This document shows positions 5,141 through 61,200 of a DNA stretch of 64,000 nt, in pieces. Source of the stretch: Trebouxia sp. TZW2008. Its lineage: Eukaryota; Chlorophyta; Trebouxiophyceae; Trebouxiales; Trebouxiaceae. The DNA is taken from contig BDIU01000062.1 in the NCBI GenBank assembly GCA_002118135.1, positions 310,001 to 374,000 of the forward strand, given 5' to 3'. The notes under the pieces are model-generated. The model ran no database searches, was not told where the DNA came from, and saw only the letters and a program-made list of their open reading frames with translations. How positions within the stretch are numbered: position 1 is the stretch's first letter; each line of letters opens with the position of its first letter. A program made the translations under genes and the position numbers.

Positions 5141-6451
5141 GAAGCAGCCACAGCAGCAGCAAAGCAAAGTACAGCAGTCATATCCTGCTGCAAAGATTGA
5201 CAATACATTAGAGTTAGCTGTAGCTACCAAAGTCATAGCTTGCTGCAAAGCTTTGCACTGCAGAAGAGGGACTACCTGTAGCCACATGGCCTGACACTGT
5301 ACTGCCCTTGTGATCCAGCCAACAAGGCTGTTTCCCCAACAATGGCAGGGGCCTTCTCTGTTTCCGCCTCCCTGTAGTGATATGTGGCAATGACATCACC
5401 TGCGTACCAGATGAGCTTGTCAAGCGACGCACAAGAAGCAATCAATCTACACTGGCAAACGTCAACAGGAGTCTCTGTCTCGCCCCTTCACCTCAACCTA
5501 TGGTGCCAACCTTGTGAGTAATCGCTGTTTGCATTTTATTTGAGCTGTGACAACACGCAGATAATGTACTGTTGATGACGACGACAAAGGCGCACCTACA
5601 TGCAACATAAGGCGGAGTCTACAGGGTGTCAGTGGGGCACAAGGTTCATGCCACTTTGTGGAAGCTTCTGTTATGCACTTGAAGCCTATATTTGTATGCA
5701 GCTTCAATTACAGGCAATGCAAATTGTCACAGGGGCGCAGCTTCATGCAAGAGCCATATGCAGTCAGCAGAGTCTCCCTGGGCACAGGATTCCTGTCCTG
5801 GCTCAACCCTTGGCAGGGTTGTTTTGTTTGTTGTGGTTCTGACACTGATTCTGAGCTGCAAGGAGCTCAAATGCAATGAGACAAACAAGAGGGGTTACAA
5901 TGATACTGCGCACCTTCATGCAAGAGCCATATGCAGTCGGCAGGGTCCCCCTGAGCACAGATCTCATGCCCTGGTGCCACCTTTGTGGGAGTTGCCCTCC
6001 CAGCTATCATAAACTGCGTCTCCTCAGGCAGGTCCTGCAGGAAACAAGCAAGCAACTCGACTGTCGACAGTTGATGGCAAATCACCAAATCAAGGTTCTT
6101 GCAGGAGGCATCACACGAATGCAGGGAGCGTTGATAGCAATTTGACAAATCAAAGTTGATAGCAACCTGACAGTTCAAAATTAATAGCAACTTGACTAAT
6201 CAAGCTTGTTGCAGAAGACATCACACAAATGCTGGGACAGCAACTTGACAAATCACACTTGTACCAGCTTGACAAAGCAAGCTTGCTGCAGAAGACACAA
6301 ACAAATGCAGCATGAACAGAACAAGCATGCCAAGTCAGCAGAACAACACGCACCACAGGACACAACACTCTCACAACAAGACGCAACACTCTCACAGCAG
6401 AACAGCTGGTTAGCGTAACGCAGAGACAATGCAGCAACAGCAACAGCAACG

Positions 6452-16115: not shown

Positions 16116-19100
16116 ATGGAGATAAACGTTTTGGACGATAGTGACGAAGGTGACGTTCCGCGCAAGCACAAGCTAGACACATCGTCTATTATTGGCGATG
16201 GCAGTTCGCGTCCTCGTCCTGCCAAACGCCGTCGGCCGGATGCGTCGTTGACGCACGTCAGTGACACTGCTGATCTTACCGAGGACGCAAGTCACGTTAG
16301 CGATACGGTCTTAGAACCAAGCGCGACCGAAGCGCCGACTGTGGCTGCTACTGCGCCTTCCAGCGATGCCGAAAGCCCAGCTTTGAGTTCACAGCAGGTC
16401 GTTCCCCTGCTTGTTGGCAAGCATAATTCGCACTTCAACCCCACGCGACAAAGTGGTAGACTACTGACGCTGCCTGCCATTGCTGCAGCAAGAGGTTGAA
16501 GACCTCGTGAAGGAGGGCAAGAATGTATTCTTTACAGGGAATGCAGGAACAGGCATGTACAGGCTGCTCCGCATCATGATTTAATTGCATTCACAATGAC
16601 TTTCAAAATGCTTACATGCAACAGCATCAATCATCAGGGTACCCGCAATACATCAGATCTATGCTCCTACAGGAAAGTCCTTTCTCCTGAACAGAATCAT
16701 ACAGCATTTTCGGGAGGAATACGGGGACGACTTCAACGCATCAGTTGCAGTCACAGCAGCCACTGGCATTGCTGCAACCCACATCAGTGGCACCACACTG
16801 CATTCACAGACTGGCTGCGGTGTGCCTCAAACAATAGATGACTTCGATCGCATGTGGAAGCCTCAAAGCAGAGAAAGGTGGCGCAAAATGAAGGTACACA
16901 CCGTCAGAAAAAGAAAAAGAAAAAGAACAAGAAGCACAAACTATCAAGAACAAAAGTCTATGCCAGGGATCGTCACACTTGGAGCCTGTAATACTAAATG
17001 CAGGCTGAACCCCCAGCAATCTGCATGTAAGACGCAGAGGCATATGGCACATGGCATGCAGCATTTGCAGCGCCACTTGTTGTAACCAGGACTCTTGGTT
17101 TCCCTGCAATGCTCAGGCTCTAGCGCGACATGCACACTCTTTGCTTTTGCTTCCGCTATATCTATGCACATATCGTGAACAAGAAAAATTTTGAATGTCA
17201 GGGGATCATGCTGAAACACGTGTCTGTGCGCGCACATGTCTGTGCCCACAACAGTCCAGCATTGCTGTTTAGAAGTGGCAGGCGGTGAGATGCACCTGGC
17301 TGTCTATTAGACAGCCTGCAAGCTTTGCTGCAGGGATGCTTCTGCCCTTAAGTTTGCAGCCAAGTTGGCTGTGACTGAAGGGCTGATGTTGCCAAGGCCT
17401 TCAGCAAGTTTTCATGACTTTTAGAGTAACTACAAAGACGCTCGGAAGAAACTTGCCTGGCGAGACAGGAGTTTGGGCCACACACACCTAGCACATATGC
17501 TGGAACGTGTAACAAATAGTATTACTATTTGGGTAACATGGCTGCAGGTGCTGATTGTGGATGAGATCAGTATGGTTTCAGCTGAAATGTTCCACCAGTT
17601 GGAGCATCATGCACGGCTGATCAGGGGAGTGGACAAGCCATTTGGTGGTGTGCAGTTGGTCTTGTCAGGAGACTACTTCCAGTGAGCTTCCTTCCCCACT
17701 AAATTGCATGACCAGTTTGCTGTTCACAGCGACAAACTATTAACCCATGTCATGCAGGCAGCGGCTCATCAATTTGTTGCACAGCCAACTGCAATGCTGC
17801 GATGCATATCAGAGGTCCAGAGCTATACACTCAACCTCAGCCCGCGTGAATGGTTATCGAGAAATTGCCTGCAGGCCTTGAGGCTTTTGCATGTTTTGTG
17901 GGTCAAATTGCTGCACCTTGTATCATGACACTGACCCAAATCTCAACTCTCCTAGGTCAGGGAAAGTTGCTTGATCAGTGTCCAATGCCAAGCTTACAGT
18001 AAGTGATGCTGCTGATACACATGCAGGCTGCCACCCATAGAGCGGCGGTGGACGTCAGGGATGGGCAAGGATGCCTTCATGAACCGCGGCTACACCTTCC
18101 AGTGCCCCGCCTGGCAGGCCTGCAACCTCCACCAAGTCCTGCTCACCAAGGTGATCTACGTGCTGCTCACTGAAAATGCATGACCATGCTAGGTGCATAC
18201 AGCAGCAATGAAATGCATCCATTGAATGTTGTACAACGCCTTTGTGTCCCCAAATCCTGCTGACTGAGGTCTGCCACTTGTCCAGCCATGTACCCATCCA
18301 TACGTCCATCTGTCCGCTTGTGCATCTGTCCGTCTCTCCATCTGTCCATCCTGCATGTCCCAAGAATCTAGCATTCCGCAATCAAACTCCGCTACTTCAC
18401 TGCCCGTGGATGCTTGCATATGGCATTTATTGTACGTTCCAGTCTCTTTGGCCTGTCTGGTAGTCTGCTGCTGGTCTGCTTGCATGCTTGCTTGCTTGCT
18501 GATGCGTTGATCTGATTGGTTTGCTGATCATCACGTGCATGTGCATTGGATGACATGCTACACATCAATTGCACCATGCAATCCACGGAACTACCAAAAT
18601 GCCCTACCTGCTGCAGGTCTTCAGGCAGCGCAACCCAGAGTTTGTCAGGATGCTGAACGACATCCGCATAGGCAATGGCAAGACAGCCATTCAGCAGCTG
18701 TTGAGCCTCTGCACACGGCCCCTGCCTGAGCAGAATGGGGTCAAGCCCACTCAGCTGTTCAGCAAGAATGCTGATGTGGACACTGTCAATGCTGCTGAGT
18801 TGAAAGCACTGCAGGGTGAAGAGGTAACGCATCTTGTAACCCTCACAGACCAGCACTGGCAAAAGCTGAGTGTGCGCACACAGCCCCTGCCTGAGCAGAA
18901 TGGTGTCAAGCCCACTCAGCTGTTCAGCAAGAACGCTGACGTGGACACTGTCAATGCTGCTGAGTTGAAGGCACTGCAGGGTGAAGAGGTATGGTTCACT
19001 GGCAAAAGCTAAATTTGTGCATTGTTGATGTGAACAATGTCAATGCTGTTGAACACTTTACAGCATGAAGAATTAGAGTGCATTGCAACCTTTACAAAGT

Positions 19101-22100
19101 GGCACTGGCACGAGCACAATTTGTGTATAGCAATGCTGATGTGGACACTGTCAATGCTGCTGAGTTGAAAGTACTGCAGGGCGAAGAGGTAGGCTGCCAC
19201 GCGCCCATTTCAAACAGGCACTAGCACAAGCTATGAGTGCTATTGTTGCATGCGTACGTGCATGTTGCATCAATGTGTTTCATTGACAGGTTGCATTGAC
19301 ACGTGACTGCTGTTGCGGAAGGTGGTCATTGCTGGGTTGTTGTTACACATACATGGTACCTCATTCAGTGAGTCACTGAATGCTCCCATTGGATTGACAA
19401 GTTGCTGTTGTGCAGGTGGTCATGGATGGGCTAGACACAGTGGAAGTGACCCCTGCTGAATCGACGGGGCAGACAGGCAGCAGCAACATGCTACCTTCAT
19501 TACTGCTACACTGGCTCTCATTGTATGAATTATTGCATCATTCACCAATGCACAGCATACAACCATGTCATTCTTGTGTTGTCCAGGTGGTCATGGATGG
19601 GTTGGACACAGTGGAGGTGGCCCCTGCTAAGCTAGACGGTGAAGGTGGCAGCAGCCTGGCAGCAGAGGAGCAGCTGTGGCGCCATGAGTTCTTCCGGGAC
19701 TGCCTTGCCCCTAAGAAGGCGGCCTTCAAGGCAAGCTGCAAAGCATCTGCATTGCTTGCCATCCAGACGAGAACTCTCAAGACAAGGCACATTGTGTTTG
19801 TACTGACTGCCATGCAAACAGAACAAGCGCAAGCACATGCATCAAAAACAATGATTGAAATGGTCATCTTCATGCTGTTGCTGCCTCCAAGACTGTCTTG
19901 CTCCCAAGAATACCAAGACAAGATGCAATGATGCTTCTGCTGCTCATGCTGCTGTTGCTGTTGGTCCTGACAATGGTAGGCACGGATAGAATGTCCTTGG
20001 AATGTTTTGGGTCAGATGTGAGGGTCAGCTGTTTGGTATAGGTTGGCGCGCAAGTGATGCTGCTGAGAAATCTGGAGCTGACAGGTGATGACCGCATGCT
20101 GGTGAACGGCAGCAGGGGTGTCATTACCAGGTTTTTGCCCAAACAGGTATTGCCCACAGCCTGTGCCCTCATGCCTCAAAACATCGTCATGCAGCCTAGA
20201 CGAAAGTTTGGTTTTCACAACCAGTGCAAGTGCCTGTCAGCATCTTGAACTGCACACAAGCAGTCATTGAGGAAAGGGTCCTCATAGGGTTTGATCACTG
20301 ATATTGTACCCATGGCCTGGCCATTTGCCTCAGGCAGCTTTCATTCCTGACAGCCAGCTGTCCCATTGCACCTGCTATTGCCTTTGTGTCCGCAATAGTG
20401 CATCACCATATATAACACTCTATATGCAATACATAACACGCAATGCGTAACATGCTATAAATGGAATTTGAGAGTATGAGTCACTCAGATGCACTGCAAA
20501 CCACAAAATACGCAATAAGATGGGGCCAATACGTGACATGCAACACGTAATTTTTTTGAAGTGTTAATTGTTGAAGAACATATTCTGGGATTCACTGGTT
20601 TGTAGCATCTCTTGCCTGTCTGAACAGCAGCTACCCTCAATCTTGTCGAATTCGGTGAGCCTCTGCACCCCAGTATTATGCTTAGCCATGTCATCATATG
20701 ATTGAACCAACTGTACATAGATCGTTCTGCAACCCAGCTGTACTCTGTCAATTGTTGCCACAAGCCCAGCAAAAACCAACATTAACATGACTTGCACATG
20801 CAATGTTGACCAATATGAAAACAGTTCAATCCTGCAGAGGCTTCTCAATGCTTGCAGGAGCGATTGAAGGAGCTGGGAGGGCTGAGAGGGCAGGCCCAGG
20901 CGCCTGGGGCCGCTGCCAGCAGCCCCTTGCCAGGCCCTGAGATTGGCAAGCTGGAGCAGTCAATGCAGAACCTGATGAAGTAAGTCAAACGCATCCACCG
21001 TGAGAAGTGCTCATGGTGTCTGCTACAAATATGGTTATGTCATATGCTAACCCTCGTCTGCGTGCTTTCCGCCTTGCAAACCAGCAGAAGTCGGTCTTTT
21101 GCAAAAGTTTTGTTGTATGTGCAGGTTGCCTTGCAACCAGCCATGTTGTGAATACCATGCATGCGATTCAGCACAGCCAAACGCTTCATATCTCGCATGA
21201 CACTCATGTAACTGGAGGGACATAACGCGGGGCACAGACCCCTAGGAACTTTGGTAAAGGATGTGATGTGTAGTGATACTGACATGACAATCAAAGTGGG
21301 CTGCAGGTAGCCCAGCGCTCACTTGCCTGTGGTGAAGTATGTTCAATGGACAGTAGGAGATGCTGCTGCATCAACACAAAATCTGTTCCTGCATGGTCAT
21401 CTTTTGACGAGACAGGACTTGGGCCACGGTCAGCCAGCCCCTTTGTTAGAATGTGTCACAATGTCTGTATCGCTGCAAACTTGGGCTGCTGGTGGCCTGA
21501 CACCCATTTGCCTGTAGTTATGGCAATACAACAAGCTGTGCTCACTGTTTTGCAAACAAACTGTGCTGCAGGTGGCCTGGTACTCACTTGCCTGTGGTCA
21601 AGTTTGTGAATTGGCGGGAGGCGGTGCTGCTGCTGCTGCTGCTGCACCTGCTGACGACCTGCATTCCTGCATGACCATCCTTTTGGCAAGACAGGACTTT
21701 GGACACAGACGCCAAAACTCCTGTGTTGAAAGACATCACAATATTTGTACTGCTAGCAAGCTGTGCTGCAGGTGGCCTGGGACTCACTTGCCTGTGGTGA
21801 AGTTTGTGAATGGGCGGGAGGAGGTGCTGCTGCCTGAGGTCTTCACAGCAGAAGTGGCTGCAGTAGGAGTCTGCAAGCGCCTCCAGGTCAGCTTCTTAAA
21901 CCTTCAATCTGGCTTCTGCTTGTGCCTCAACTTCTTGCTCATGAACGAGGCAGGAATTGGCAGGAAAACGAGGTGGGAAGGGGGGGGCAGGAATTTTGTC
22001 TGTCTAAAACACACTGGATGCAACTGGCTGATGCCATACTTGTCATCCTGTCCAAGCTCAGTGCTAGTGTTGCAATGTGGTGTTGATGTTGACTTGCCAG

Positions 22101-32599: not shown

Positions 32600-35500
32600 A
32601 TGTCTGCTAAACGCGATCCGCAAATACTCCCTAGCAAGGAAGCGGGCTTGTTTCGACAATTGGTGCGACACTATGAAACCAAGCAATGGAAGAAAGGCAT
32701 CAAAGCTGCTGACCAGATCCTCAAGAAAAATCCCGAGCACGGCGAGACTTTGGCGATGAAGGGATTGATTCTGAACTGTCAGGACCACAAGGAGGAAGCT
32801 TTCGAGCTCAGTCGCAAGGCATTGAAACTGGACATGAAGAGTCACGTGTGCTGGCATGTTTATGGGTAAGTCAAACTTGCCTGGCATGCCTTCAGAACAG
32901 TGTTCCTCAGTCACTCAGCGTATACTGCAACTGGTGATGGCAGTCGGACAACCTGATTACCGTTCTTCTGCAGTTTATTGTATCGAGCGGACAGAAACTA
33001 CACAGAAGCCATCAAGTGTTACAAAAACGCTTTGCGGCTTGACAAGGAGAACTACCAGATCATGCGAGACTTGGCATTTCTTCAGGTGCACATGTGACGC
33101 AATTCCATCACCATTTACAGTCACTGATCCTTACAGCTCAGCTGCCTTGCATTCAGCAAGCACTCACCATACCTAGCACCTCTTATGAACAACACAAGCA
33201 CATGTAATCTTCGCCACCTAAGCAGCTATGCGCGTTTTGCAGATTCAAATGCGGGATTTCCCGGGCTTTGTGGACACCAGGCATCAGCTGCTGCAACTCA
33301 AAGCCAGCGTCAAGGGTCACTGGCTGGGCCTGGCAGTCGCTCATCATCTGAATGGGAACCACACACTAGCAGTCCAAATCCTGAAGTCCTTCCAGGACAC
33401 TCAGGAGGAGGTCCCTGACAACGAGCAGTACGAGCAGAGCGAAGTGCTGATGTACAAGGCCATGGTGTTGAGGGAAGGCTGCGCTCTGCTGACAGCGCTT
33501 CAAGTGCTGCAGGAATGCAAGGTATGGCACATTGGCATCAGCTTGTTCAAGCACCAGACGCCGCATGCTATTGCGTCGCGTAGAATGTAAGGCATGTGAA
33601 CAGAGATTGCCACATCTTCCTCGAGAGGAAAGCACCCTGATGCAGCCTTGCACGTACAGTGCATTGAACTTGCATGTACCACCTCAGCTGCATTCAAGTC
33701 AGCAGTCTTGAACACAATAACATTGCATGCAGCTCTTTTGGCTCCGTGACAGCTCAGCCCAAACATCAGTGCCCAGTTTGTAATTTAAGCTTGTATGCTA
33801 AAATTGATGTAATCTGACAGGATGACATCAAGGACCAGTTGGGCAATGAGGAGATGCAAGCCAGCATCTTGTTGGAGCTTGGCAAATTTGCACAAGCTGA
33901 AGAGCTATACAGGCAAGAGCCCTGTCATCTTTTACCCTTCTGCCATACATTGCTGATGACCCCCTGCTTTGACGATGGGTGCCCCTATGCTCATCTGAGC
34001 GCCTGCAAAAAGTCTTTCGATGGCACAGATGCAGAGACTTTCACACAACTGCATTGCAATTTTCTGCTCAATCATTGACTTTCTCTGCAGCAGTGCTCTA
34101 CTGGCATTGCCACAGCATAGATAGAGCACGTCCTGGCCTCAGCATCAGTCAGCGGATGGCCAGCAAGCTAGAATCATGCACTTAAGCCTGTGTTGTGCAT
34201 CAACATTCCAAGCATCACATGGCGCACTGAACTATCAACATGCCAGCATTGCTGCCGCTGCTGCCGTTGCTGCTATGACACCCTGAATTTGCTCCTGGTA
34301 TTGAGCGTAAATGATTTGAGCATCGCATTGCATACGAATTTTGGAACATGCCAGCATTGCTGGCACTCTGAACTTGCTTTGCGTGCTGAGGAAGCAAGAC
34401 CTGTGTTGCAGGCACATGCTGCAGTTCAATCCAGACAACTACCAGTATCACCTGGGACTCAGGCGTGCTGTGGGTCTCCTGCCAAATGAATCTGGAAAGC
34501 TAAGTGATGCCCAAAGGGAACAGCTGACCGACCTGTACGACAGTCTGCAAGAGCAATATCCCCGCAGTAGCGCTGCACAACGAATACCTCTAGACTTCAA
34601 GGTGCGTGGACTGTGATCACACATGATGCTGCAGTCCAGATTGCAACTTATGCAATGAGCAGGGCTGAGATGTAGGATTATGGCAAGAGCAACACCCCCG
34701 CAGCACCGCTACACAACAATTGCCTTTCGAATTCAAAGTAGGTCATTCTGTGACACATGGCAAATTGCTGTAGCTGAAGTTGCAGCTCTTGTCATGGGCC
34801 CAGTAGACGAGCTGTTGATCAGCACCAGAAGCAGACAGTATGGCTTGATTGTTCTCTGCATTGAACGTCCTTTCACAGACCCAACATGGAAGCACAGGAT
34901 ACCATTCAACCTGTAGTAGAAACCCAATGCAGAGGCATACAGACTGTCTGTACTGTAGCTGATGAGCACAAAGTCAAGTCAAAATTTATGGCACCCTCAT
35001 CTTTTTGGTCAAATTGCCAAGTGAGACCCTTGCCTATTGAGACAAAGGATGTGTGGCTTGATACATGCTGGGCCGCAGTACATGCTGCACATGGACAACT
35101 TTTGTTTAGGACACATTGATTCCAACTTTCATTTGTACACTGTGTTTTGCTCAAGCACAATGCATATGCTTTCATCTTCATTTTGGCTGGCTGCCCATTA
35201 CCTTCAGTATCATCCTCAGTCCTCATTTCATTGTATCAATGCACACATTAGAATGAATGACATCCAGTATTGAATGACATGACCCATCCATCACAGCCTT
35301 GTTGGCTGGCTAAGGTTGTAACACCCGATTCCTTGTCCTGCAGCATTGTGTCTGCACAGAGGGGTCACTTCAGCCAAGGGATGTGACTTGCTTCAAGACC
35401 TGCCAAGACTAACTGATGTTCAGGAGAGGCTGATTATTCATGAGCGCAAAGGGGCTCAATCGAATCTCTCGGGTGTGCAAGTGGGTTTTGATCCCGTCTG

Positions 35501-38500
35501 GTGTTGCTGTGTAGGTTGGACAGGCTTTCGCAGATGCAGCAGATCGGTATGTGCGCAAGTTCCTGAACAAGGGTGTACCATCCCTCTTCTCAGATCTCAA
35601 GCCCTTGTACAGGTGCAGCACTCCTTACTAGCATGCTGTTTCCTGACAGTTATGAACCTTGTCTGAGCGCTGAGCTGTTGCGCTTGAGCATTGGTTTGCT
35701 TCAACACAGCAAGCCAGCCTCTGGGGGACCATGTGTTGAGCATTCTGCAGGAATTGGTATGCACACATTGGTCTGCATGGTGTAAGCTGTGGACAAGTCT
35801 GCCCAGCATTGATTGTCTTTGGTCTGTGAATGTCCACAAAGCGCCTCCTGTCACATCATTCTTCATACTTTTGACATGCAATCACAGTGCAATGGAGTTG
35901 CACATGCCATAGCCTTGCACCCTCACTGTGATGCATTGCAAGCGCATGCTGCAGTCTGCAGCTCAGCAGACGGCTGCTGTTGTTGCTCAACATTGGTTTG
36001 TGGTCATAGGGACAAACAGAAGGGAGAGGCTCTTGGGCAGCTCTTTGAATGCTTGAATGAATCTTTAGAGTCCACAGGCTCCTTCCCAGCGCTAGACAGT
36101 GAGGATGCCCCACCTGCAAAGCCCCAGGCTCAAGTGTGGACCATGTATCAGCTAGCCCAGCACTATGACATGCAGGGGAGAACTGGTAAGCTTGCTGTTG
36201 CCCATGTCAAGTCATCAGAACTGATAGCCCCAGACAGTGCAAACACTTGCCCTGCAAAGCACCAGGCTCAAGTGTAAACCATGTATCAGCTACCCCAGCA
36301 CTACGACATGCAGGATTAAACTGCTAAGCTTGCTGTTGCGCATGTTAAGTCGTCAGAATTCATAGGCCTCGACAGTGAGGACACTTGCCCAACCAAGCTC
36401 CACGCACAACTGTGGACCATGTATCAGCTAGCCCAGCACTATGACATGCAGGGTAGGACTGGTAAGCTTGCCGTTGCCATCTTAAGTCATCAGCATTTAT
36501 AGCCCTAAACAGTGGCAACGCTTACTCTGGAAAGCCCTTGGCACAAGTGTAAACTATGCAACAGCACTATGACATGCAGGGTAGCACTGGTGAGCCTGAT
36601 GCTGCCATTATGAGGTTATGCGGCCCGATATAACCTGCAGCTGTGCATGTACTGGGTGCAGTGCTGTATACTTTATTTGCGCAAATGCAGGCTAGAGAAC
36701 ATGTCTGCCTCATCCTGCCTGTGATGTTCTCATCACAGTGCTGTGCATGATGCACTGCTCAGGTTATCACATGTCGCAAAGAAATGGAATCAGGAAGGTC
36801 AAACAGCTGCGTGCAATGTACATGGTCAGCAACGATGCAACAATGGCTGCATTACTCTTGCGACTTTGCATCAGTCAAGATGTCATCGAGCTTCTAGCCG
36901 GGCTGCAACCATCACGCCATTTGGTCTGGATTTCAGCGCTGCATGGTGTCAAGAGTGCTGCCGATGTACAACTTAAAACAGAACAGCTGCTGCACCTTAT
37001 CTTGCAAGGACCTCTCCGCCCTTCATGTTCAATATAATTGGTTTAGGTTAGCACATGATCGAACTGGTTGGGGACATTTGGTTGCTTCTGTACGTACCTA
37101 GTTGGGCCTGCTGAGCCTGCCTAGCCCACGTTTATGATGAATGAATGAAGTGACCTTATCTGAACTGTCTTGACGCATCAGTGGCCAAGATGCTGCTTTG
37201 GGTTGCAGGCGATGCACTGAGAATGCTGGACAGGTGTATACAGCAGGAACCCGACTTGCTGGAGCTGTACAGCATGCAGTGCAAGATCTTCAAGCATGCG
37301 GGGGACCCTGAAGCCGCTGCTGCAGCTGCTGACAAAGCGCGCACCATGGATCTGGCCGACAGGTACGGTGCGGCTGCCTCGGCTATGAACATTATTGCCC
37401 ATTTTGCCACGTGTTGTCTTTGTGGCGTGCTGTGATACACGTGCAGACTATATTGCATTTGTTGCACTTTACCATCTGGTACATCATTTCTGCTGCAATC
37501 TTTGTTGATCTCGCATTAAACATTGTGTGACAGCCCTGCATACACAAGATCGACAATGCATGCAGGTACTTGAACTGTCAGGCCGCCAAGTGGCAGTTCC
37601 GGGCTGGCCAGATTGAGCAAGCTGAGAAAACGGCAGCCATGTTCACTAAGGACGGCGACCAGGCCAATAACCTGCATGACATGCAGTGCATGTGGTATGA
37701 GCTGGAGTGTGGCCGAGCACACCTTCAACGGCAGCATTATGGCAAGGCAAGCTGAACATAAATATGACGCTGTCTATCATTGGTGTTTGTGCACTTTACA
37801 AGCTGTGTGGCTTCTGTGCAATTTGCATGACAGTGTGGCCAAGCACAGCTGCAATGGCAACCCAATAGCAAATTAAGCTGATAACAAAGACAAAGTTGTC
37901 TGTCATTGCGACGCGTGCATAACCTGCATGACATGCATGTGGTATGAGCTGGAGTGTGGCTGAGCACACCTACAGCGGCATCACTATGGCAAGGTAAGCT
38001 TGTCATGTATGCAATGCTGTCTACCAATGGCTCTATGAGTATTGCTCAAGAGCTGTGGCTGTTGCACAACCTGCATAACATGCGGTGCATGCGGTATGAG
38101 CTGGACTGTGGCAGAGCGCACTTACAGCGGCAACATTATAGCAAGGTCAGCACATTTCTTGCCCCTTTGCGTACGAGCTGTGTGATATGCAGTACATGTG
38201 GTATGAGCTGGAGTGTGACGGAGCACACTTACAGCGGCAACACTATGGCAAGGTAAGCTGGCCATGTATACAACGCTGTCTACCACCGGCTCTGTGAGTC
38301 TTGCCCAAGATGAGCGGCTACTGCACAACCTGCATGACATGCGGTGCATGTAGTATGAGCTGGAGTGTGGCAGAGAACGTTTACAGCAGCAACATTATGG
38401 CAAGGTCAGCACATTTCTGCCCCCTTGGCATGCAACCTGTGTAATATGCAGTACATGTGATGTCAGCTGGTGTGCGGCCGAGCACACCTTCAGCGGCAAC

Positions 38501-41500
38501 ACTATGGCAAGGTAAGCTTGTCATGTATGCAATGCTGTCTATTCATGGCTCTATGAGTATTGCCCAAGATCTGTGGCTGCTGCACAACCTGCATGACATG
38601 CAGTGCATTGGGTATGAGCTGGAGTGTGGCAGAGAACATTTACAGCGGCAACACTATGGCAAGGTCAGCACACTTCTTGCCCCTTGGCATACGAGCTGTG
38701 TGATATGCAGTGCATGTGCTATCAGCTGGTGTGCGGCCGAGCACACTTGCAACGGCAGCACTATGGCAAGGTAAGCTAGTCATGTATACGACGCTGTCTA
38801 CCACCGGCTCTGTGAGTATTGCCCAAGATGTGCGGCTACTGCACAACCTGCATGATATGCAGTGCATGTGGTATGAGCTGGAGTGTGGCCAAACACACCT
38901 TCAGCGGCAATGCTATGGCAAGGTAAGCTGGTCATGCGTTCAACGTTGCCTACTGTTGGCTGTGTCACTTTGCCACGAGCTGTCTGCAATCTGGTGGACA
39001 GTACGTGTGGTACATGCAGGAGTGTAGCCGAGCACACTTATGGCAGCAATACTATGGCAAGGTAACATGGTCATGAACAGCAACTTGTTCATGAACGCGT
39101 TGTCACAAATGCTTGACCTGCGTGACATGCATTGCATGTGGTATGAGCTGGAGGGTGGCCGAGCACACCTGCAGCGGCAACACTATGGCAAGGTAAGCTG
39201 ATCATGAAAACAAAGTTGGCTGTCATTGTGATGCGTGCATAACCTGCATGACATGCAATGCGTGTGGTACAAGCTGAAGTGGCCAAACACACCTTCGACG
39301 GCGATACCGCGGCACGGTCAGCACAACTTGTCCAGCACTGGCTATGTGATTTGTGGCCAAGTTCTCATGGGTAGTGCATGTTGAGCATGAAAGTTATCAT
39401 GGCAAACTCGTGTCCACACTGGAAATATTATGTCAATCTGAAACAAGAATGATACCATGCTGCTGAGGCAGGTCTACCATCCATGACTGCATTTCAAGTG
39501 CATGCCTACACACAATCTTTGGCCGGCACTTGCACGTGCTGAAGTTGTTCACGCATGTATGCTGTACCTCCACATCTAATACAGCAAAGCTGCAAATGCT
39601 GCTGATGATTGCAGGCACTGAAGATGTTCACGTATGTCTTCAAGCACTTTGAGGACTTCCGTGAGGATGAGTTTGACTTCCACTCATACTGCCTACGTAA
39701 GCAGACACTACGCGCGTATGTGGAGATGCTACGCATGGAAGACCAGCTGTACCACCACATCTACTACAGTAAAGCCGCCTGGGGAGCGATAGAAACCTAT
39801 CTGCTGCTAGCAGACCAGCCTGATCTGAATGCTAAGGTGATCAACGCATCTCACATCCCCTGATGTTGTCTGTTGGTGCCATGTACTTTATTCACAAAAT
39901 AGAGGGGGACATTACGAGCCTATCTGTTGCTGGCAGACCAGCCTGATCTGAAAATCAAGGTGCCCGTATCAATCTCACTTTCTTATGTTGGCTTTTGGTG
40001 CCGCATGTGCCAGACTAATAGCAAGACCCATAATCACCTATCTGCTGCCAGCAGAACTGTCTGATCTGACTGTCAAGGTGAACCACTAAGTCTCAAAACC
40101 TGGCTTCAGCTGTTGTAACTGTGTTTGGGTTCAACATTCGTGCCCAAAATAGCACATTTGCTTGGCAGCATCTGGCCATGTTTGGGTTGGTGGCGTTTTC
40201 TGATAGCTTGCACAGTCGGCGTGCAATCACGCCGGCCAATGACAGAGTTCACACTTAAGGGTAAGCAGATGCTGACATGCAGAACTTGATCATACTGCCT
40301 TTCATGGGATTGCAGAGTCACTGCCCAAGTGTGCTAGGCCTAACTGGAACACAAAACGCCTAAATCTCTTAGCCACAAAGTCCTGATCTTGTGACAGGGT
40401 GCAGCAGACAATATTGTTCAGTGCAAGAGACACCTTGAGCAGCCTGATGCAGCACACAAGCCATTTATTGCTCAGGACAGCAGACGTTCCATTGTGTATT
40501 CCCTGAGGAGGATTCGTTGTCCTTTTCTGCTTTCAGCTGACAGTGGGTCATCTGAGCTTTGACTGAAAAAGTGGCTTGCCAAGCTGAAGTGATCACAGCA
40601 CAAGCCACATGTAGTGCATAGCAAGTAGAACTTGTTGACGCAGATCACGCTCAGGCTCACAAGCGCATTTGTGTGGAGTGGCCAATGCCTTCAATGTTAA
40701 ATGTGACATTGAAGATGTGGAGCAAATTGTGCTTATGCTTTGAGTGCTCACGTTTTGAGTGCTGTTACTCATTGCTCATGCTTTGCTCATGCTTTGCTCA
40801 TGCTTTGAGTCTTGCTCATGCTGTGCTCATGCTGTGTGTGGTGACAGGCTGAGGCTGAGGAGCAGGCCAAGCTGGCAGCCATGAGCGCAGAAGAGCGCAA
40901 GAAGTACAAACAGAAGCAGAAGAAGGTAATGCTCCTCTATGTGTCTAGAGAAAAGACCAAAAAGTCTGCGCCTTGAGGCTTTGCCAAGAGAGAAGATTGG
41001 TAATGCATCAGGCTTCCTCACAAATTCAACACACGGAGGGCATCAAGCATGTACATCTGTCTTGTGACATCCATTTGCTTGCTGTACTGCATGTGCAGCA
41101 GTTACATGTCTTTGCTGCTCATGTGTCCAATGTGCATCTGATCAACAGGTCAAGCAGCTATTTCTTTCTTTGTTACCTTTGTTGTTCATACGCATTTCTG
41201 TCATGTCTAATGCAAATGTGTCTGGTTTTACCACCTTCTAGTCGAGCAATGCATTGTGGCTGGCAATTTGTTGCCGCCTCAGCTGGAGTAAGTTGTGTTG
41301 CAGATGTGCTCATGTCCAAGTAGCGTTTGATGTCCAATTTGTCATTGCCTAATCAGACACGCGATGCCTAGCACCTCTGTTAGACCCTGTGGTATGTGAC
41401 CATTACTACGTGTGATGCAGGAGGAGACGAGGAGACAGAAGGAGGAAGAGGCAAGGGAGGCCAAGTTGCAGCAGGAAGCTAAAGAGAAAGAGAGCAAAGA

Positions 41501-44223
41501 CAAGGGCAGCAAGGGCCCCAACAAGAAGTAAGCAGCTACGTTAACCTCACCATTACATGCAGGCTATGCACTTTTCACACCATAAGCGTCTTTGAGTTTG
41601 AGAGCAAAGAAAAGGATGGAAAATGGCCCGACAAAAAGCGTGCAGCTTACCTTTATCACAACAGTGTATGCTATGTGTGCAGCATACGCACTTGCACAGG
41701 TGAGCAGCTCTATTGTGACCCCACTAGTGAAGTGATTTGTGTGCAGCTTATGCACTTGTAGAAGTGAGCAGCTCTGCTGCAGCCACCATCTTCTTGTGCA
41801 ACTTTGCGTAGGCTGCACCCATTTGACCATTGCACCTATCTGTTGTGAGAACAAAGATGTGGGGAGGAAAGATCCCTACAAGAAGCAAAACCCTCAACCC
41901 TGAGTAACATGCATATCCATCGTTACTTGCAGTCAAACATCTCATCATGGCTTGCACTAGCAACAACCAAATCAATTGTTACGGCTTGCAGTCAATGGTT
42001 GGCGACGTCAGTTCATGACTGGAAGAAAAAAAGATTTGTTCATCTTGACTTGAGTTGTCATTGTTTACACAGGGAGAAGGATCTCGATCCTGAGGGCAAG
42101 CAGCTAGCAGCCACCCCAGACCCCCTAGCAGAGGCCACCAAGCTCGTGCAGCAGCTCAGGCAGTCAGCTGGGGACCGCCTCAAGACCCACCTTCTAGCAT
42201 TTGAGGTTGGTCATGCCAATGACCTTGCTCATGTCCGATGAAATGCAATCATGCACTCAGTCAAAGTTTGACCATCAAATTTGCTTGCGTTGTTCGTAGT
42301 CCTGCATGAATACCCCAACAAGTTCACGCCCGCGTTCCAGTCTTTACACTTGGCACAACAGTATCCTCTCTCATGTCCAGGGGGACTGCAGTGCACTCAG
42401 TCACGCTGCTTGCATTGTGCATGGCGCCGCATGAATGCACCAATGAATCATGAATTACCTTCTAGCCTTTGAGATCTGTCATGCCAATGACCTTGCTCAT
42501 GTCCACTGAGTTGCAGCAATGCGTTCAGTCCAAGTGTGACGGCCAAGTGCCTGCACTGCACATAGCCCTGCATGATTGCCCCGCCAAATCCTGGAATAGG
42601 AACAGTGCCTTATAACCACTCTTTCAGTGCTTCAACACGAACAGAGTTGTTCATGTGTTTACCTTCTGTTGTGATTGTTCTGCGGATGGTTTTGCAGGTG
42701 TACATGCGTAAGGGGCGCATCCTGCTGAGCTTGCAAGCAGTGAACCAGGCAGTGAAGCTAGTGAGTGCCTCACACCCAGACGTGCACCGCCTCATTGTGC
42801 GGCTATGCAGAGCTGTGCAGCAACAGCAGCAGCAGCATCAAATGCAGCAGTCCCAGGAACCTACTGCTGACCAGGTGGGCATGCGAGTCACGATTTACAT
42901 TGAACATCCTTTTTGAGACCCAACAGGGGGGGCACAGGACACCATTCATAACTCAAATAAACAGTCACTGGTGTTTGTCAACAGAACATGCATGCAAGCA
43001 CTTGTCTTGCATTCACAGGAACTCATTGCTGATGAGCGTCCAAGCACATGAAAGCATGTACTGCTGTGTTTGTCATTTTCATTGGTGGATGCACTGTCTC
43101 ACGGCAGATGCATGTAGCTACATCAATTGGTTCTGTCGTTGTGTGGTGCGTGACAGAAAGCACGGTCAGCTGTGCAGGAACGTCACTTGGTGTAGCTCAT
43201 ATCCTTGACAGGCAGACAGCATCAACACTCTGGAAAGTGTCAAGCATGATGCTCATGATGCACTGTGTAAGTTGCCGTACCTAGAGCAACATATTCAGTT
43301 GCTGCATTTGCCAAAGCCACTCAAGCCAATGCAATGCAGCCACTAACAATGCCATTCTGTGCTTTGCAGACTGCAAATGGCAGTGGCTCCACTCAAGTGG
43401 TACAGCAAGTCATTGACAGCCAGGTGGAGCAGCTGCTGAGCTCCCAAACCATACAGCAGTACAATGACAGCTACACTGACAAGCATGGCAGCACATCCCT
43501 CAGGCATACAGCTGCAGCAGCAGAGATGCTGTTGCTGCTACAGCCACAGGACAAACACCGTGCTGTTAAGCTGCTGCTGGACAGCCAAAGCATTTCTGAG
43601 CAGCCTGGTAGGTTTTCCCAAAGCCTGGTACTCAATTTTGCATGGATTAGGTTATGGTGAAGCAGTGCCGTGGTGGAGGTTTTGTCACTTGATGCAAAGA
43701 GATATGCAGGTTTTGCTCAGTGTGCGCTGGCTGCCACATATCATGCTGCTATCTGTTTGCAGTTGCGCTTCTTGCAGTGACATGTTGAGTGCTGCGTTGA
43801 ATGCTGCACAGCCATCAGCAATCTGCAATGCACAAGTGCAAGCTGAAGATCTTGCAGTAGAGCTCATGTGAGCGCAGGCTCTCCAGATAGGTCAGAGCTT
43901 TGCATCAGCTAGTCACTGTTTCATCGCCTAGCTCACATGTACATGTGGCTTTTGTTCACGTCAGCAGTTCAATACTGTCATGTAAATCTGCAGGAACCAG
44001 TGGTAGAGCTAGTCACCAAGATGCTCAGGACGTTCATACCTTACTCAAAATCAAGTTTGACGACGATCAAGCAGCAGCCCAGTGGTATGACAGGTGTCAA
44101 TCTGTTTTCTGCTGGTCACAGTATTTTTCTGGCTCCAAGCGCTGGCATCTTCATTCGCATTGCGAAAGCAATGGCACAGTAGCAGACAAAGTTGCTGCGC
44201 TGACCCTCAATGGTCACCGATAA
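32600..44223 (+). CDS. NAA15: NatA N-terminal acetyltransferase auxiliary subunit (NAA15/16 type)
   Basis: A TPR scaffold that binds the catalytic NAA10 and the ribosome for co-translational N-terminal acetylation. Exons: 32600-32865, 32974-33085, 33243-33521, 33821-33912, 34412-34601, 35515-35612, 36010-36185, 37209-37362, 37566-37746, 39615-39836, 40848-40925, 41421-41527, 42073-42205, 42698-42874, 43370-43607 and 43994-44223 (TAA); all phases join. Hallmarks: [105 protein letters not shown], a charged [20 protein letters not shown] helix, [13 protein letters not shown] and a C-terminal [18 protein letters not shown] segment. A Gln run (42820-42845) is inserted before the C-terminus. The donors at 33913 and 37747 are GC. 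Introns after exons 7, 9 and 10 contain exon-copy arrays. The gene is large (11.6 kb for about 910 aa). Confidence 0.93.
34670..34745 (+). pseudogene. Decayed copy of NAA15 exon 5 end
   Basis: GGCAAGAGCAACACCCCCGC and the following 45 bases match the end of exon 5 ([19 protein letters not shown]) about 140 bp earlier, including the AAG|GT donor area. Frame changes show it is no longer coding as such. Confidence 0.75.
36010..36592 (+). repeat. Four tandem copies of the NAA15 exon 7 end
   Basis: Exon 7 ends at 36185 with [18 protein letters not shown]. Its 3' part recurs at about 36232-36317 (stops, donor lost), about 36382-36461 (open: [20 protein letters not shown], with a GTAAGC donor and a GACAG that could be an acceptor) and about 36508-36589 (stops). 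Unit spacing is 128-144 bp. Confidence 0.9.
36640..37208. other. Intron segment with inserted dispersed repeat
   Basis: This part of the NAA15 intron is unlike the exon-copy array beside it. It ends with the 37030-37125 copy of the repeat also found at 1803-1930. An 88-codon open frame (36777-37037) has no recognised family. Confidence 0.45.
37566..39318 (+). repeat. Thirteen-copy mini-exon array with 259-bp higher-order period (NAA15)
   Basis: The last 60 nt of NAA15 exon 9 (37687-37746, [20 protein letters not shown]) recurs with cores starting at 37934, 38086, 38193, 38345, 38452, 38604, 38711, 38863, 39002, 39133 and 39259, plus a decayed copy near 37815. All but the 37815 and 39259 copies are exactly 60 nt. 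Spacings alternate 152 and 107 bp, so the 38086/38345/38604/38863 and 38193/38452/38711 series are each spaced by exactly 259 bp. Open copies: 38086, 38193, 38604, 38711, 38863, 39002 and 39133. Stops occur in 37934, 38345 and 38452; the 39259 copy has a 2-nt deletion. Copies at 38193, 38604, 38711, 38863 and 39002 also have an AG just before the core and a GT donor after GGCAAG, phase 0 at both ends. The original exon has a GC donor; most copies have GTAAGC or GTCAGC. Confidence 0.95.
39895..40080 (+). repeat. Two decayed copies of NAA15 exon 10 end
   Basis: The [23 protein letters not shown] end of exon 10 (39836) recurs at about 39911-39960 ([14 protein letters not shown], open, donor GTGCCC) and about 40025-40077 ([14 protein letters not shown], donor GTGAAC). 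The spacing is about 120 bp. Confidence 0.9.
40735..40842. repeat. CATGCTTTG-type short tandem repeat in NAA15 intron
   Basis: GCTCATGCTTT units repeat about six times, ending just before the acceptor of exon 11 (40848). Confidence 0.8.
41590..41900 (+). repeat. Two decayed copies of the NAA15 charged-helix exon
   Basis: GAGAGCAAAGAAAAGGATGG (about 41600) and AACAAAGATGTGGGGAGGAA (about 41850) resemble the end of exon 12 ([14 protein letters not shown], 41421-41527) with its flanking intron. Frames are disrupted. Confidence 0.7.
42455..42540 (+). repeat. Decayed copy of NAA15 exon 13 end plus intron
   Basis: CCTTCTAGCCTTTGAGATCT and the following TGCCAATGACCTTGCTCATG repeat the exon 13 end (HLLAFE, 42205) and its intron start at about 42190-42240. 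The GT donor is changed to AT. Confidence 0.8.
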
Positions 44224-58200: not shown

Positions 58201-61200
58201 TCGATAGCAAGGAAGAATGTGTTTCAGCTGCAGGCTTTGGGCACAAGCTGTGCATGACCTGGCGACAGTGCAATGCAGGCCCTCTTGATCTTGGCTGTGA
58301 CAATGCAGGAGGCTACTCAGGGCAAGATAGTTCATCAGTAAGGAAGAGTGAGTCTCAGCCCCAGGCTTTGGCCACAAGCTGTGCATGGCGTACTGACAAG
58401 ACAATGCGTGGCACTGAAGCGCCCAAGAGGAGTTTGATGATCTTGACTGTGATCATGTAGGAGGCTACTCAGGGCAACCGGTAGACAGTAAGGAAGAGTG
58501 TGTTTCAGCCCCAGGGTTTGGCCACAAGCTGTGCATGGCCTGGCGACAGGACAACGCAGGACCCCACAGCGTACAAGAGGTAGGGGATCACATTTGATGG
58601 CACAATAAACTATCTGTGTAATGACTGCTTTGAGTACCAGGAAGTTTGTCCTTGTCATTGAATTGTCCTTGTCATTGAATTGTCCTTACTCAGAGGGACC
58701 ACTGCAGTCAGGATGCAATGATTGGTCACCAGTGGCGTGGTCCTCACATTGAGATTGGCATTACATGTAGTGTCCTTACAACGAGAGTTTACTGTAGGAA
58801 TCAATACACATTCTGGTGTAAGAGTGAGCTGTGTTTGACCTGAGTCCCGCCTCGCCAGGGCAGCTTGTGTTGGATGTCAAAATACAAGCATGTGATGTGC
58901 AAGAACTCACCTTTGTAGGCCATCATTATGCAAGGTTGCGTGGCAATGCATACAGGTGCAATGTCTGGTACAAGCTTTCCCAGTTTGCGAAGCCCAAATT
59001 GGAGGGGTTGAGCGTGAACACTACATTTGCAGTCCACAGCCACGTGCAACATAATGTATGTGATGCTCTTTGTAGGGCTGTGTCGCCAGCAAGTCAGGTG
59101 GTTGCACAGCATCCTGCTGTTAACATGGTTCTTATCATACAGCGTGATGCATGTGATGGTCCTTGTCAAACCGCAATCAGGACATCAGTGTCTGCTGTTG
59201 GCAGTCTTTCTCTGTCACTGTCAGGATAACTCATCCAAGTACACACAGTGTCAACAGCTGTTTTGGTCCATGTTCTGCAGGTTCTGGACATCTTCCAGCG
59301 AACTCAAGCTGCTTTCCCGGGGGCCAAGGTCTTTGTCTCAACCCTGGACGAATTCACCCTGGCCCTACAGGCAGCCCTACCCAACTTGGACCTGCCAGTT
59401 GTAACTGAGGAAATTGGTGACACTTGGGCTTATGGCATTGCCAGTGACGCTGATAAGGTGGCAGAATATAGAGCACTGTTGCGTATGAGGACTGCAACTG
59501 AGTGGAAGGTTCAAGAAGCTGCTTACAGAAACTTCAGCAGACTGTTGTTGAAGGTATGAGCTGTCTTGCTGCTAGTTGCACACAGTCCAGTTGATGATAC
59601 TGCGCAGTGAGTGCAAAGACAAGGTGACAGAATATACAGCACTGTTGTGTATAAGGATTGCCACTGCGTGGAAGGTTCAAGAAGCTGCCTATAGAAACTT
59701 CAGCAGGCTGCTGTTGACGGTATGAGCTGTTGCGCTGTTGCTTGCATGTGTTTGCACAGTCGTGCTGCAACACGCTGTTGGTTGTATGTGGCCAAACTGA
59801 CGAGCACGAGCAACAAGTGCAAAGTTCATACCAACAAAGCATGCCAAAGATGAGCGCAAGACTGCTGCTGACGCTGTCATGTTGCTGATAACACACAGCC
59901 AGATTGATGAGCCTGAGCAGTCATTGCAAAAAGTGGCAGTGTATAGAGCGCTTTTGTATTTGCATCTTGCCTTTGACTGGACAACATAACCGCTCATAAT
60001 TTCAGCAGAAGTGTGCTTAAGTTCTTGCAGTGCAAGAGGCTGCCTACAGGAACTTCAGCAGACTGCTGCTGAAGAAGTGAGCTGTCATGCTATTGCTTGC
60101 ATTCAATCACGTCATCATCGTCTTCAAAACGTATGCTAGTTAGGTTCAAAGAACTTGCTAGGTGCGTATAGTCACCAAGCAAATGTCTGCTTGCACATTG
60201 CCAAAGTGATGAGCCTGTGCGATGAGTGTAAGAGCAACAAAATTTAGGCACGCCAATGATCAGTGCAAGACTCGCTCTGGTGCAACATGCTGTTTGTTCA
60301 CGATGAAGTTGCTGAGGGTGAGCAATGAATACAATGTTTGCAACAACAAAACATGCCAAAGACGACCGCTGCTGCTGAAGGTATGATCTGTCACGTCGCT
60401 GATTGCGCCAGCAGTCATGATCGCTGAAGTGATGAGCCTGAGCAATGCATGTAAGATCTGTAGCATCAGAGCATGCCAAGGATGAGAGCAAAATCTCAGG
60501 CTGTACTTTGTGCTGCACAGTGTTTTTGGGAAGGTAGCAAGCGCATGTACTGACAGTGAAGCCTTGCAGGCAATGCTGTCACCTGCTTGTCTGCCAGAAA
60601 ATTGTTCTATCAAATTGGATACGTTGCGATGTTCATCTTTTGCATTGCAGATTCCAGAGCTCATTTGAGATTTGGCAACAACACCTTTCTACATGACATT
60701 GTCAACTACGCCATCAATGACTTCGATGCGCAGCTGCAGGCGCACGCACAGAATGACAAGGAGAACATTGCGTAGTGACATGACTATCAGATGCCTGCTG
60801 TCGAAAATCTGACAGCCGTCATCATCATTTGTATCATGTGTCTTGCAGATTTCAAAGTATACCTGGGGAGTTGACACTGAGACCTATTTACACGACAATG
60901 TCAACTATGCCAACAAGGATGTCCAAGAACCATTCCCTGCTTGGCATGGTTGAAAATGTCATCTAAATAGGTCTTGGTGCCAAATCCCAGGTATACGGCA
61001 CTCTGAAACCTACAAGACACATGAAACTTGTCAGCATCTTGGACAGCAGGCATCTGATTGTCATGTCACTGTGCAGTGCTGTCCTTGTCATTTTGTTCAT
61101 GTCCATGAAAGTCCTCGTTGGCATAGTTGACAATGTCATGTAGAAACGTGTTGGTGTCACACTCCCAGGTGTGTGCTGGCATCCACAGAACACATGAGAT

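Follow-up and report, generated by a model that had tools for sequence, protein, structure and literature searches.

The NAA15 locus and its exon-derived array

All coordinates refer to positions in the window, i.e. the whole 64,000-nt stretch of DNA that was analysed. NAA15 (NatA auxiliary subunit) was modelled from tblastn and the spliced coding sequence. The identity given to the array-bearing gene in the first-pass annotation was supported by the tblastn match, for which the query was human NAA15, and by a 16-exon model without an internal stop. The top database match of the product was Trebouxia sp. C0005, at 81% over the first 631 amino acids, and on the evidence of this gene the genome lies nearest Trebouxia. 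NAA15 is a housekeeping gene, and the host is a lichen alga. The intron after exon 9 contains, from 37,832 to 39,322, twelve direct copies of the end of exon 9 together with its donor and some intron.

32600-44222, + strand: NAA15, 16 exons as modelled; last base of the stop codon at 44223
37566-37746, + strand: exon 9 (181 nt), from which the array derives; GC donor at 37747-37748
37687-37746, + strand: parent core, the 3'-terminal 60 nt of exon 9
37832-37908, + strand: degenerate copy, donor lost
37934-37993, + strand: copy core interrupted by a stop and not preceded by AG; GT donor; 259-bp series A
38086-38145, + strand: copy core, open, no AG before, GT donor; series B
38193-38252, + strand: copy core, open, CAG before and GT after; series A
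38345-38404, + strand: copy core interrupted by a stop and not preceded by AG; GT donor; series B
38452-38511, + strand: copy core, stop inside, CAG before and GT after; series A
38604-38663, + strand: copy core, open, CAG before and GT after; series B
38711-38770, + strand: copy core, open, CAG before and GT after; series A
38863-38922, + strand: copy core, open, CAG before and GT after; series B
39002-39061, + strand: copy core, open, CAG before and GT after; more diverged than any other clean copy
39133-39192, + strand: copy core, open, no AG before, GT donor
39239-39322, + strand: last copy, degenerate, core disrupted, GT kept
37936-38928, + strand: 259-bp tandem array, 3.8 units, head-to-tail
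39615-39836, + strand: exon 10, joined directly to exon 9 in the aligned predicted proteins of five relatives

With the parent counted, the 13 copies reported by the first-pass annotation were recovered (family D4). Eleven have gapless 60-nt cores, parent included, with ten clean cores in the intron; eight of the 11 are open, and five open extra copies (38193, 38604, 38711, 38863 and 39002) have CAG before the core and GT after it, all as originally described. A sixth copy, at 38452, also has CAG and GT and contains a stop. The GC donor of the parent and the GT donors of the copies (10 of 10 clean copies) were likewise confirmed.

The array itself therefore stands as first noticed, while the nature of its parent, the series count and the TPR label do not. 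What had been described as a 60-nt mini-exon is the final stretch of the 181-nt exon 37566-37746, and the CAG that had been taken for its acceptor is a codon within that exon. A TPR repeat comprises 34 residues, and 20 residues are too short for a TPR module. The copied unit also exceeds the core, including roughly 18 nt of further exon upstream as well as donor and intron. The copies thus carry about 78 nt of exon 9 without the exon's own acceptor region, short of a cassette or mutually exclusive exon.

The reported 259-bp period of two interleaved series was reproduced, with eight copies (4 + 4) instead of seven. The 259-bp unit is a dimer of 152 and 107 bp, a nested order of units. First spacers paired 37934 with 38452 and 38193 with 38711 (8 and 7 differences of 92, versus 14-16 in other pairings), and because these pairings are the closest, they suggest a 518-bp block doubled from 259 bp, a pairing not matched by all cores. 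A repeated unit with splice sites inside an intron could also denote a mobile intron (introner) or transposon fragment. This origin is scarcely conceivable, as the source is the adjacent exon and a whole-genome search with the parent core and donor, a lower bound, gave at least nine matches, comprising the parent itself and eight copies, and none elsewhere.

Coding constraint and splice-like sites

Across the cores, differences were equal at codon positions 1, 2 and 3 (0.184, 0.167 and 0.172), and changes from the consensus comprised 19 synonymous, 36 non-synonymous and 4 stop changes, with a neutral expectation of 16.0, 38.1 and 5.0. The number of open cores matched expectation, so that the open copies need no selection. 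The coding-bias check proposed by the first-pass annotation thus gave the neutral outcome that it had set against cassette use, and its suggestion of a length-variable cassette array is not sustained. Its alternative, a very recent intronic satellite of exon material, holds as to satellite and exon origin; "very recent" overstates the case, given a core-to-core divergence of about 17% per site, and first spacers are about equally diverged. The predicted proteins of five relatives read YGK/ALK or equivalent at the exon 9/exon 10 junction, and no insert was present there in their alignment. Furthermore, the Leu of this gene's WYELECG occurs in 9 of 10 copies and Ile in 5 of 5 aligned relatives, which indicates that the array is lineage-specific or was later homogenised.

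Splice motif scores, built from only 21 introns, ranged from 5.4 to 7.8 for the donors of all ten clean copies. The acceptors of the five open CAG/GT copies scored 5.7, 3.1, 6.1, 4.7 and 1.2, compared with 3.7-11.0 for real acceptors. Trained on NAA15 and DIS3, a small gene finder predicted exons at 38193-38252, 38711-38770 and 38863-38922, all of them scoring low for coding potential (4.3, -0.5 and -0.8). Splice-like sites in the copies are good enough for exon calls, and on these predictions some copies may therefore occasionally be included as exons. These scores and calls, with the phase-0 CAG and GT of five open copies, favor a cassette array, in which splicing would include some copies as mini-exons of 20 residues and so vary the TPR scaffold. 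Such use is nevertheless highly improbable given that the cores lack coding constraint, two of the five acceptors score lower than any real one, the CAG is an inherited codon, the 20 residues are unlike a TPR repeat and the insert is absent from the relatives' predicted proteins.

The donors themselves merit separate consideration. AAG/GTAAGC is found in 6 of 10 copies, and its score of 7.8 exceeds that of every one of the 15 real NAA15 donors, which reach 7.2 at most (5.7 for the GC donor of the parent). Among 51 12-nt windows across the ten cores (the two degenerate copies being excluded), the donor block CTATGGCAAGGT varies least, with 3 changes and permutation p values of 0.004 (raw changes) and 0.002 (minimum changes); for the seven-copy subset without 38452, 38604 and 38711, p was 0.018 (minimum changes). 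This low variability is not predicted by plain neutrality. It could reflect an array of decoy donors, in which strong donors beyond the GC donor divert splicing to an early-stop product (in-frame TGA at 37753-37755) and so tune NAA15 output. However, the scores favoring such decoys derive from 21 introns, the degenerate copy at 37832 has no donor, and outside the array, among 14 donor copies belonging to homology-verified exons, 10 retain GT, near the approximately 77% calculated for 12% divergence per site. Taken together, a regulatory role of this kind is improbable. The 10/14 count omits one DIS3 row, whose exon end was unverified, and all predicted loci, while NAA15 exon 5 and DIS3 exon 7 yielded no row. 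Predicted exons of one such locus (L020) were left unused since they looked unreliable, most aligned ends being without GT or AG. Adaptive conservation of donors beyond the array was not seen in the verified exons.

Short-range duplication elsewhere in the genome

Similar structures occur elsewhere in NAA15.

34547-34739, + strand: exon 5 end and downstream copy
36113-36608, + strand: exon 7 end and donor, 3.7 copies of 138 bp
39784-40086, + strand: exon 10 end and donor, with two downstream copies
42189-42582, + strand: exon 13 end (17 nt) and intron start, with a copy

Sixteen further 10-kb loci contained 61 islands of short-range direct duplication, amounting to about 16% of the DNA and affecting 14 of the 16 loci. 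All 121 pairs there were direct and none was inverted, and the same search on Markov-shuffled sequence (48 runs of 10 kb, 480 kb) returned 0 direct pairs. For 73 of 79 islands, the shortest distance between copies did not exceed 214 bp. The NAA15 array is an extreme case of this general process in the genome. Tandem DNA misassembles readily and the genome comprises 527 contigs; even so, with cores about 17% apart per site and local direct duplications at 14 of 16 other loci, an assembly artefact is extremely improbable.

In NAA15 and the portion of DIS3 analysed, the adjoining intron holds degenerate copies of 11 of the 22 donors and of 3 of the 23 acceptors. Between exon and copy, codon positions 1/2/3 differed by 0.109/0.099/0.195 (NAA15) and 0.133/0.130/0.251 (DIS3), the pattern to be expected when constraint acts on the parent and not on its freely drifting copy. 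A whole-exon copy at one locus (L017, DEAD_2 helicase, minus strand) looked constrained, with 1, 3 and 16 differences at codon positions 1, 2 and 3 of the predicted frame. It was rejected as a functional duplicated exon; a frameshift in the upstream copy makes it at best a recently dead exon. No description of such exon-end copying was found in the literature searched. In three lichen-alga genome papers (PMC12712428, PMC11523091, PMC6652019) the word "tandem" appears 0 times in the main text, and passages of these papers do not mention exon copies in introns.

An exon-intron junction falls within most of the duplications in NAA15 and the analysed portion of DIS3. Leaving derived arrays aside, just three pairs lie entirely beyond modelled exons (34211/34319, 41674/41738 and, in L024, 4/121), and the copy at 39561 derives from the interior of exon 10. 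This exon-end bias was rejected as direct proof of mechanism, because a conserved exon partner keeps pairs detectable longer than intron-intron pairs. Under lenient alignment, many copies reach into the intron at lower identity.

Anchoring at splice sites was examined in 55 non-tandem pairs with identities of 80% or more; one island can contribute several of them, so they are not independent. At a score of 6, 15 of the 55 pairs had an acceptor-like site among the segment's first 17 nt (null mean 4.2) and 8 had a donor-like site close to the segment's end (null mean 2.2), values reached by 0 of 300 shifts in either case. The excess was weaker at a score of 4 (acceptors, 22 versus 13.5, 6/300; donors, 19 versus 10.8, 1/300). 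Among the 46 pairs remaining without the two training genes, at score 6, 14 acceptors lay in the first 20 nt versus 4.2 expected, with 5 donors versus 2.0 and another donor bin at 7. Simulated random tandem duplication with decay placed a true acceptor in that bin in 9/239 and 10/231 detected pairs and a true donor in 18/239 and 11/231. Donors, given these simulated frequencies, exceed the random model little. Acceptor-like sites near segment starts are commoner than in that model, suggesting that random duplication plus selection may be an incomplete account. Copying throughout the genome might then be anchored at splice sites by its mechanism (e.g. coupled to transcription or splicing), continually seeding introns with stretches of exon end, each starting at an acceptor or stopping just beyond a donor, with the NAA15 array and its unusually strong donors as an extreme product. 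This is unlikely, though it deserves attention; a selection filter could also yield anchoring, as acceptor copies bringing a branch point would trap splicing.

Origin of the array and comparison with known systems

The reading preferred here, with a probability of roughly 0.83 and resting on sequence comparison, is that the array is an inert intronic satellite, which arose by local duplication of the end of exon 9, was built up by later duplications and is decaying neutrally as part of a genome-wide process. A short-range duplication would have placed the exon 9 end, donor and some intron into the intron. The copy would have been tolerated, with splicing and protein unaffected, because the first donor remains contiguous with the exon. 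Subsequent local duplications presumably involved the 152- and 107-bp units, then 259 and probably 518 bp. At present the copies, probably unused in mRNA, would decay like other intron DNA. Widely across this Trebouxia-like genome, short segments give rise to direct copies, at distances of mostly 62-214 bp; selection would remove duplications that alter exons or working splice signals, and the remainder would lengthen introns. Copies of exon sequence would remain identifiable for the longest time, since the exon they came from is conserved.

Several known systems bear comparison. Potato RdRp is reportedly a case of intron gain by tandem genomic duplication. According to passages of PMC3443670, tandem genomic duplication is a known mechanism of intron gain, with the new intron arising between two AGGT copies. 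As in that account, the NAA15 array involves local copying of a short exonic stretch whose ends resemble splice sites, tolerated because it is hidden by splicing; unlike the duplications described there, the array lengthens an existing intron, and no exon-to-exon duplicate pair bounding an intron was found in NAA15 or part of DIS3. Like higher-order satellite arrays, the NAA15 array combines monomers into a larger unit, here a 259-bp dimer probably doubled to 518 bp, with largely neutral decay, and it shares with higher-order intronic satellites a regular head-to-tail period, nested units and absence of coding constraint, its donor block being less variable. It differs from higher-order satellites in its size (about 1.5 kb), its single genomic place (lower-bound search) and its composition of a coding exon end with donor. 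Tandemly duplicated mutually exclusive exons also lie as copies beside a parent exon, whereas the NAA15 copies represent the last part of the exon, without acceptor or coding constraint. Introners similarly change intron content in a lineage-specific way, but the NAA15 copies adjoin their source exon and the unit was not found dispersed (lower-bound search).

The outcome is mostly a sobering one, as neutral decay would account for the modular-exon story of the array. Gene prediction in such genomes may yield phantom exons, several array copies having been called by the small finder, and the copies offer many natural tests of the spliceosome's disregard for strong decoy sites. Introns are usually thought to lengthen mainly via transposons and simple indels. 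Exon ends would mark another route, widespread short-range direct duplication, made visible because selection holds one partner of each pair constant, and their copies may thereby provide a means of measuring intron growth in this 68.5-Mb algal genome.

NAA15 and the array downstream of exon 9

The genome assembly containing the window is a 68.5-Mb eukaryotic assembly in 527 contigs. A tblastn search with a human NAA15 sequence as query matched the exons of the gene in order, and the resulting NAA15 model has 16 exons and a reading frame without an internal stop. The best database match of its first 631 residues was Trebouxia sp. C0005 (81%), followed by C0010 (79%), which places the alga in Trebouxia or near it. 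GC donors occur in two of the 15 NAA15 introns (33912-33914, CAG/GCAAGA; 37746-37748, AAG/GCAAGC; slash, exon end).

32600-44222: NAA15 gene
37566-37746: NAA15 exon 9, 181 nt, with a GC donor at its 3' end
37747-39614: intron after exon 9, the longest of the NAA15 model from exon coordinates

The array reported in the first-pass annotation was confirmed. The intron carries 12 further copies, from 37,832 to 39,322, of the last stretch of exon 9, its donor and the start of the intron. A gapless core, equivalent to the last 60 nt of exon 9, is kept in ten of the 12; the degenerate copies at 37832 and 39239 are excluded from all core counts and tests. GT lies directly 3' of the core in all ten gapless copies. 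Eight of the copies comprise a series of 259-bp units, in which alternating cores are separated by first and second spacers; cores differ at 5-13 of 60 positions and first spacers at 7-16 of 92. Judged by the first spacers, the units pair up at a 518-bp spacing (sister spacers differ at 8 and 7 of 92 positions, other pairings at 14-16), but the cores are mixed relative to this pairing, e.g. 37934 and 38193 differ at only 5 of 60 positions. The second spacers of units one to three differ from each other at 3-8 of 47 positions and from the fourth at 34-35, the fourth unit running into other sequence at this point.

Coding and donor signals in the copies

Two readings of the copies had been proposed: mini-exons that could be spliced in to add 20 residues each, or an inert intronic satellite. 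Across the ten cores, the first, second and third codon positions showed pairwise differences per site of 0.184, 0.167 and 0.172, respectively. Changes from the core consensus were synonymous in 19 cases, non-synonymous in 36 and stops in 4, compared to 16.0, 38.1, and 5.0 expected from random placement under the same mutation spectrum. Seven of ten cores were open (neutral mean 6.4, P(7 or more) = 0.49). With codon positions alike, substitution classes near random, an open count near neutral and spacer-like divergence, the cores behave as an inert satellite with respect to coding, and these codon-position, substitution-class and open-frame results leave the mini-exon interpretation unsupported. 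The consensus of the copies still encodes the present exon 9 sequence. The Leu of WYELECG is retained in nine of ten copies where five aligned relatives have Ile, so the array postdates the Leu change or was later homogenised.

The 12 nt at the donor (CTATGGCAAGGT) were the least variable of 51 windows across the ten cores (3 changes, permutation p 0.004; p 0.002 on minimum changes; p 0.018 in a 7-copy subset with 38452, 38604 and 38711 dropped), a result favoured by the omission of the two degenerate copies, since one of these has no donor. With a score matrix derived from NAA15 and DIS3 introns (n = 21), six of the ten copy donors scored 7.8, exceeding all 15 real NAA15 donors. Together, the least-variable donor block and the high-scoring copy donors are evidence against pure inertness.

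Exon copies and local duplication across the genome

One sampled 10-kb locus (L024, 1-6131) contains part of the DIS3/RRP44 exosome gene (RNB domain, E 7.4e-101), in which degenerate copies of many exon ends lie in adjoining introns, e.g. exon RGALTLASPEVKFEI with three partial copies upstream. Degenerate copies, one or more per site, lie in the adjoining intron for 11 of the 22 donors and 3 of the 23 acceptors of NAA15 and the DIS3 portion; two of the 11 copied donors include little exon (17 nt for NAA15 exon 13, 5-11 nt for DIS3 exon 7). Similar exon-copy pairs were observed on predicted exons at four other loci, whose predicted genes have Pfam matches to DEAD_2 helicase, PAP_assoc, AP2, and Nucleotid_trans; the predicted-gene query from L020 had no Pfam match. 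Differences between exon and copy at codon positions 1, 2, and 3 were 45/412, 41/416, and 81/416 for NAA15 and 49/368, 48/369, and 92/367 for DIS3, with rates of 0.069-0.180, 0.067-0.149, and 0.201-0.268 on the predicted frames. The doubled rate at position 3 is consistent with freely drifting copies of a constrained parent; coding constraint on the copies as well would have kept positions 1 and 2 much more alike.

At L017 (minus strand, 5665-6062), a predicted DEAD_2-type helicase exon is duplicated entire, acceptor and donor included, the two copies being separated by an 18-nt spacer. Differences fall mostly at third codon positions and the upstream copy carries a frameshift; it is perhaps a recently dead duplicated exon. 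At 18711-19191 of the window, where an exon is predicted, three copies 92-97% identical all end in GAAGAG/GTA followed by unrelated sequence; no other copies ending immediately 3' of a donor-like site were as similar to one another. Inspection by eye indicated a PIF1-like helicase P-loop in a frame at window 16600-16900 and a reverse-transcriptase-like stretch, probably of a retrotransposon (L012, 124-348).

Eighteen islands of local direct duplication were found in the window. The genome was sampled at 16 further 10-kb stretches, picked by coordinate irrespective of content (11 + 5); only 11 of 20 stretches requested in the first round were usable, nine contigs being too short, so the sample is biased toward larger contigs. 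Islands numbered 61 and were present in 14 of the 16 loci, occupying 25,270 of 160,000 bases (spacers counted); they comprised 121 direct pairs, and inverted pairs within 2 kb were absent. L009 and L022 showed no local duplication at the threshold applied. No direct pair arose in shuffled sequence (48 runs, 10 kb each). For 73 of the 79 islands, the shortest distance between copies was 62-214 bp. The window held seven inverted pairs within 2 kb; the six listed at a stricter cut-off all lie in one island, at ~60.9-62.4 kb. This island (60642-62449) combines inverted and direct local repeats and differs in kind from the others. No description of such a duplication habit was found in the portions of the literature searched, including lichen-alga genome papers, although absence from print is not thereby proven.

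Segment ends and a possible mechanism

Following a donor-spanning duplication, the original donor would remain attached to its exon and the copy would be removed by splicing, making the event cost-free. An acceptor-spanning duplication would leave the copy 5' of the functional acceptor, where it would be tolerated only if it did not attract splicing. This difference could account for two observations: donor events outnumber acceptor events across the two verified genes, and many acceptor-type copies include little intron 5' of AG.

In simulations of random tandem duplication and decay, acceptor-anchored starts made up ~4% of detected pairs, versus an observed excess of ~22% (17/55 pairs minus 5 expected), and donor-anchored ends 5-8%, versus an excess of ~12% (9/55 minus 2.5). 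Two of the loci had supplied the training data for the score matrices, and pairs were non-independent. Selection or a splice-coupled process may lie behind this excess. Among 34 pairs with ≥84% identity, 28 had an aligned stretch that fell short of the inter-copy distance by more than 20 nt, and flanks that were mostly unrelated. This pattern resembles templated insertion more than it does plain unequal crossing-over, although some of the pairs are non-adjacent members of one island. The NAA15 array is an extreme case of a genome-wide habit of short-range duplication, and that habit is the more interesting result.
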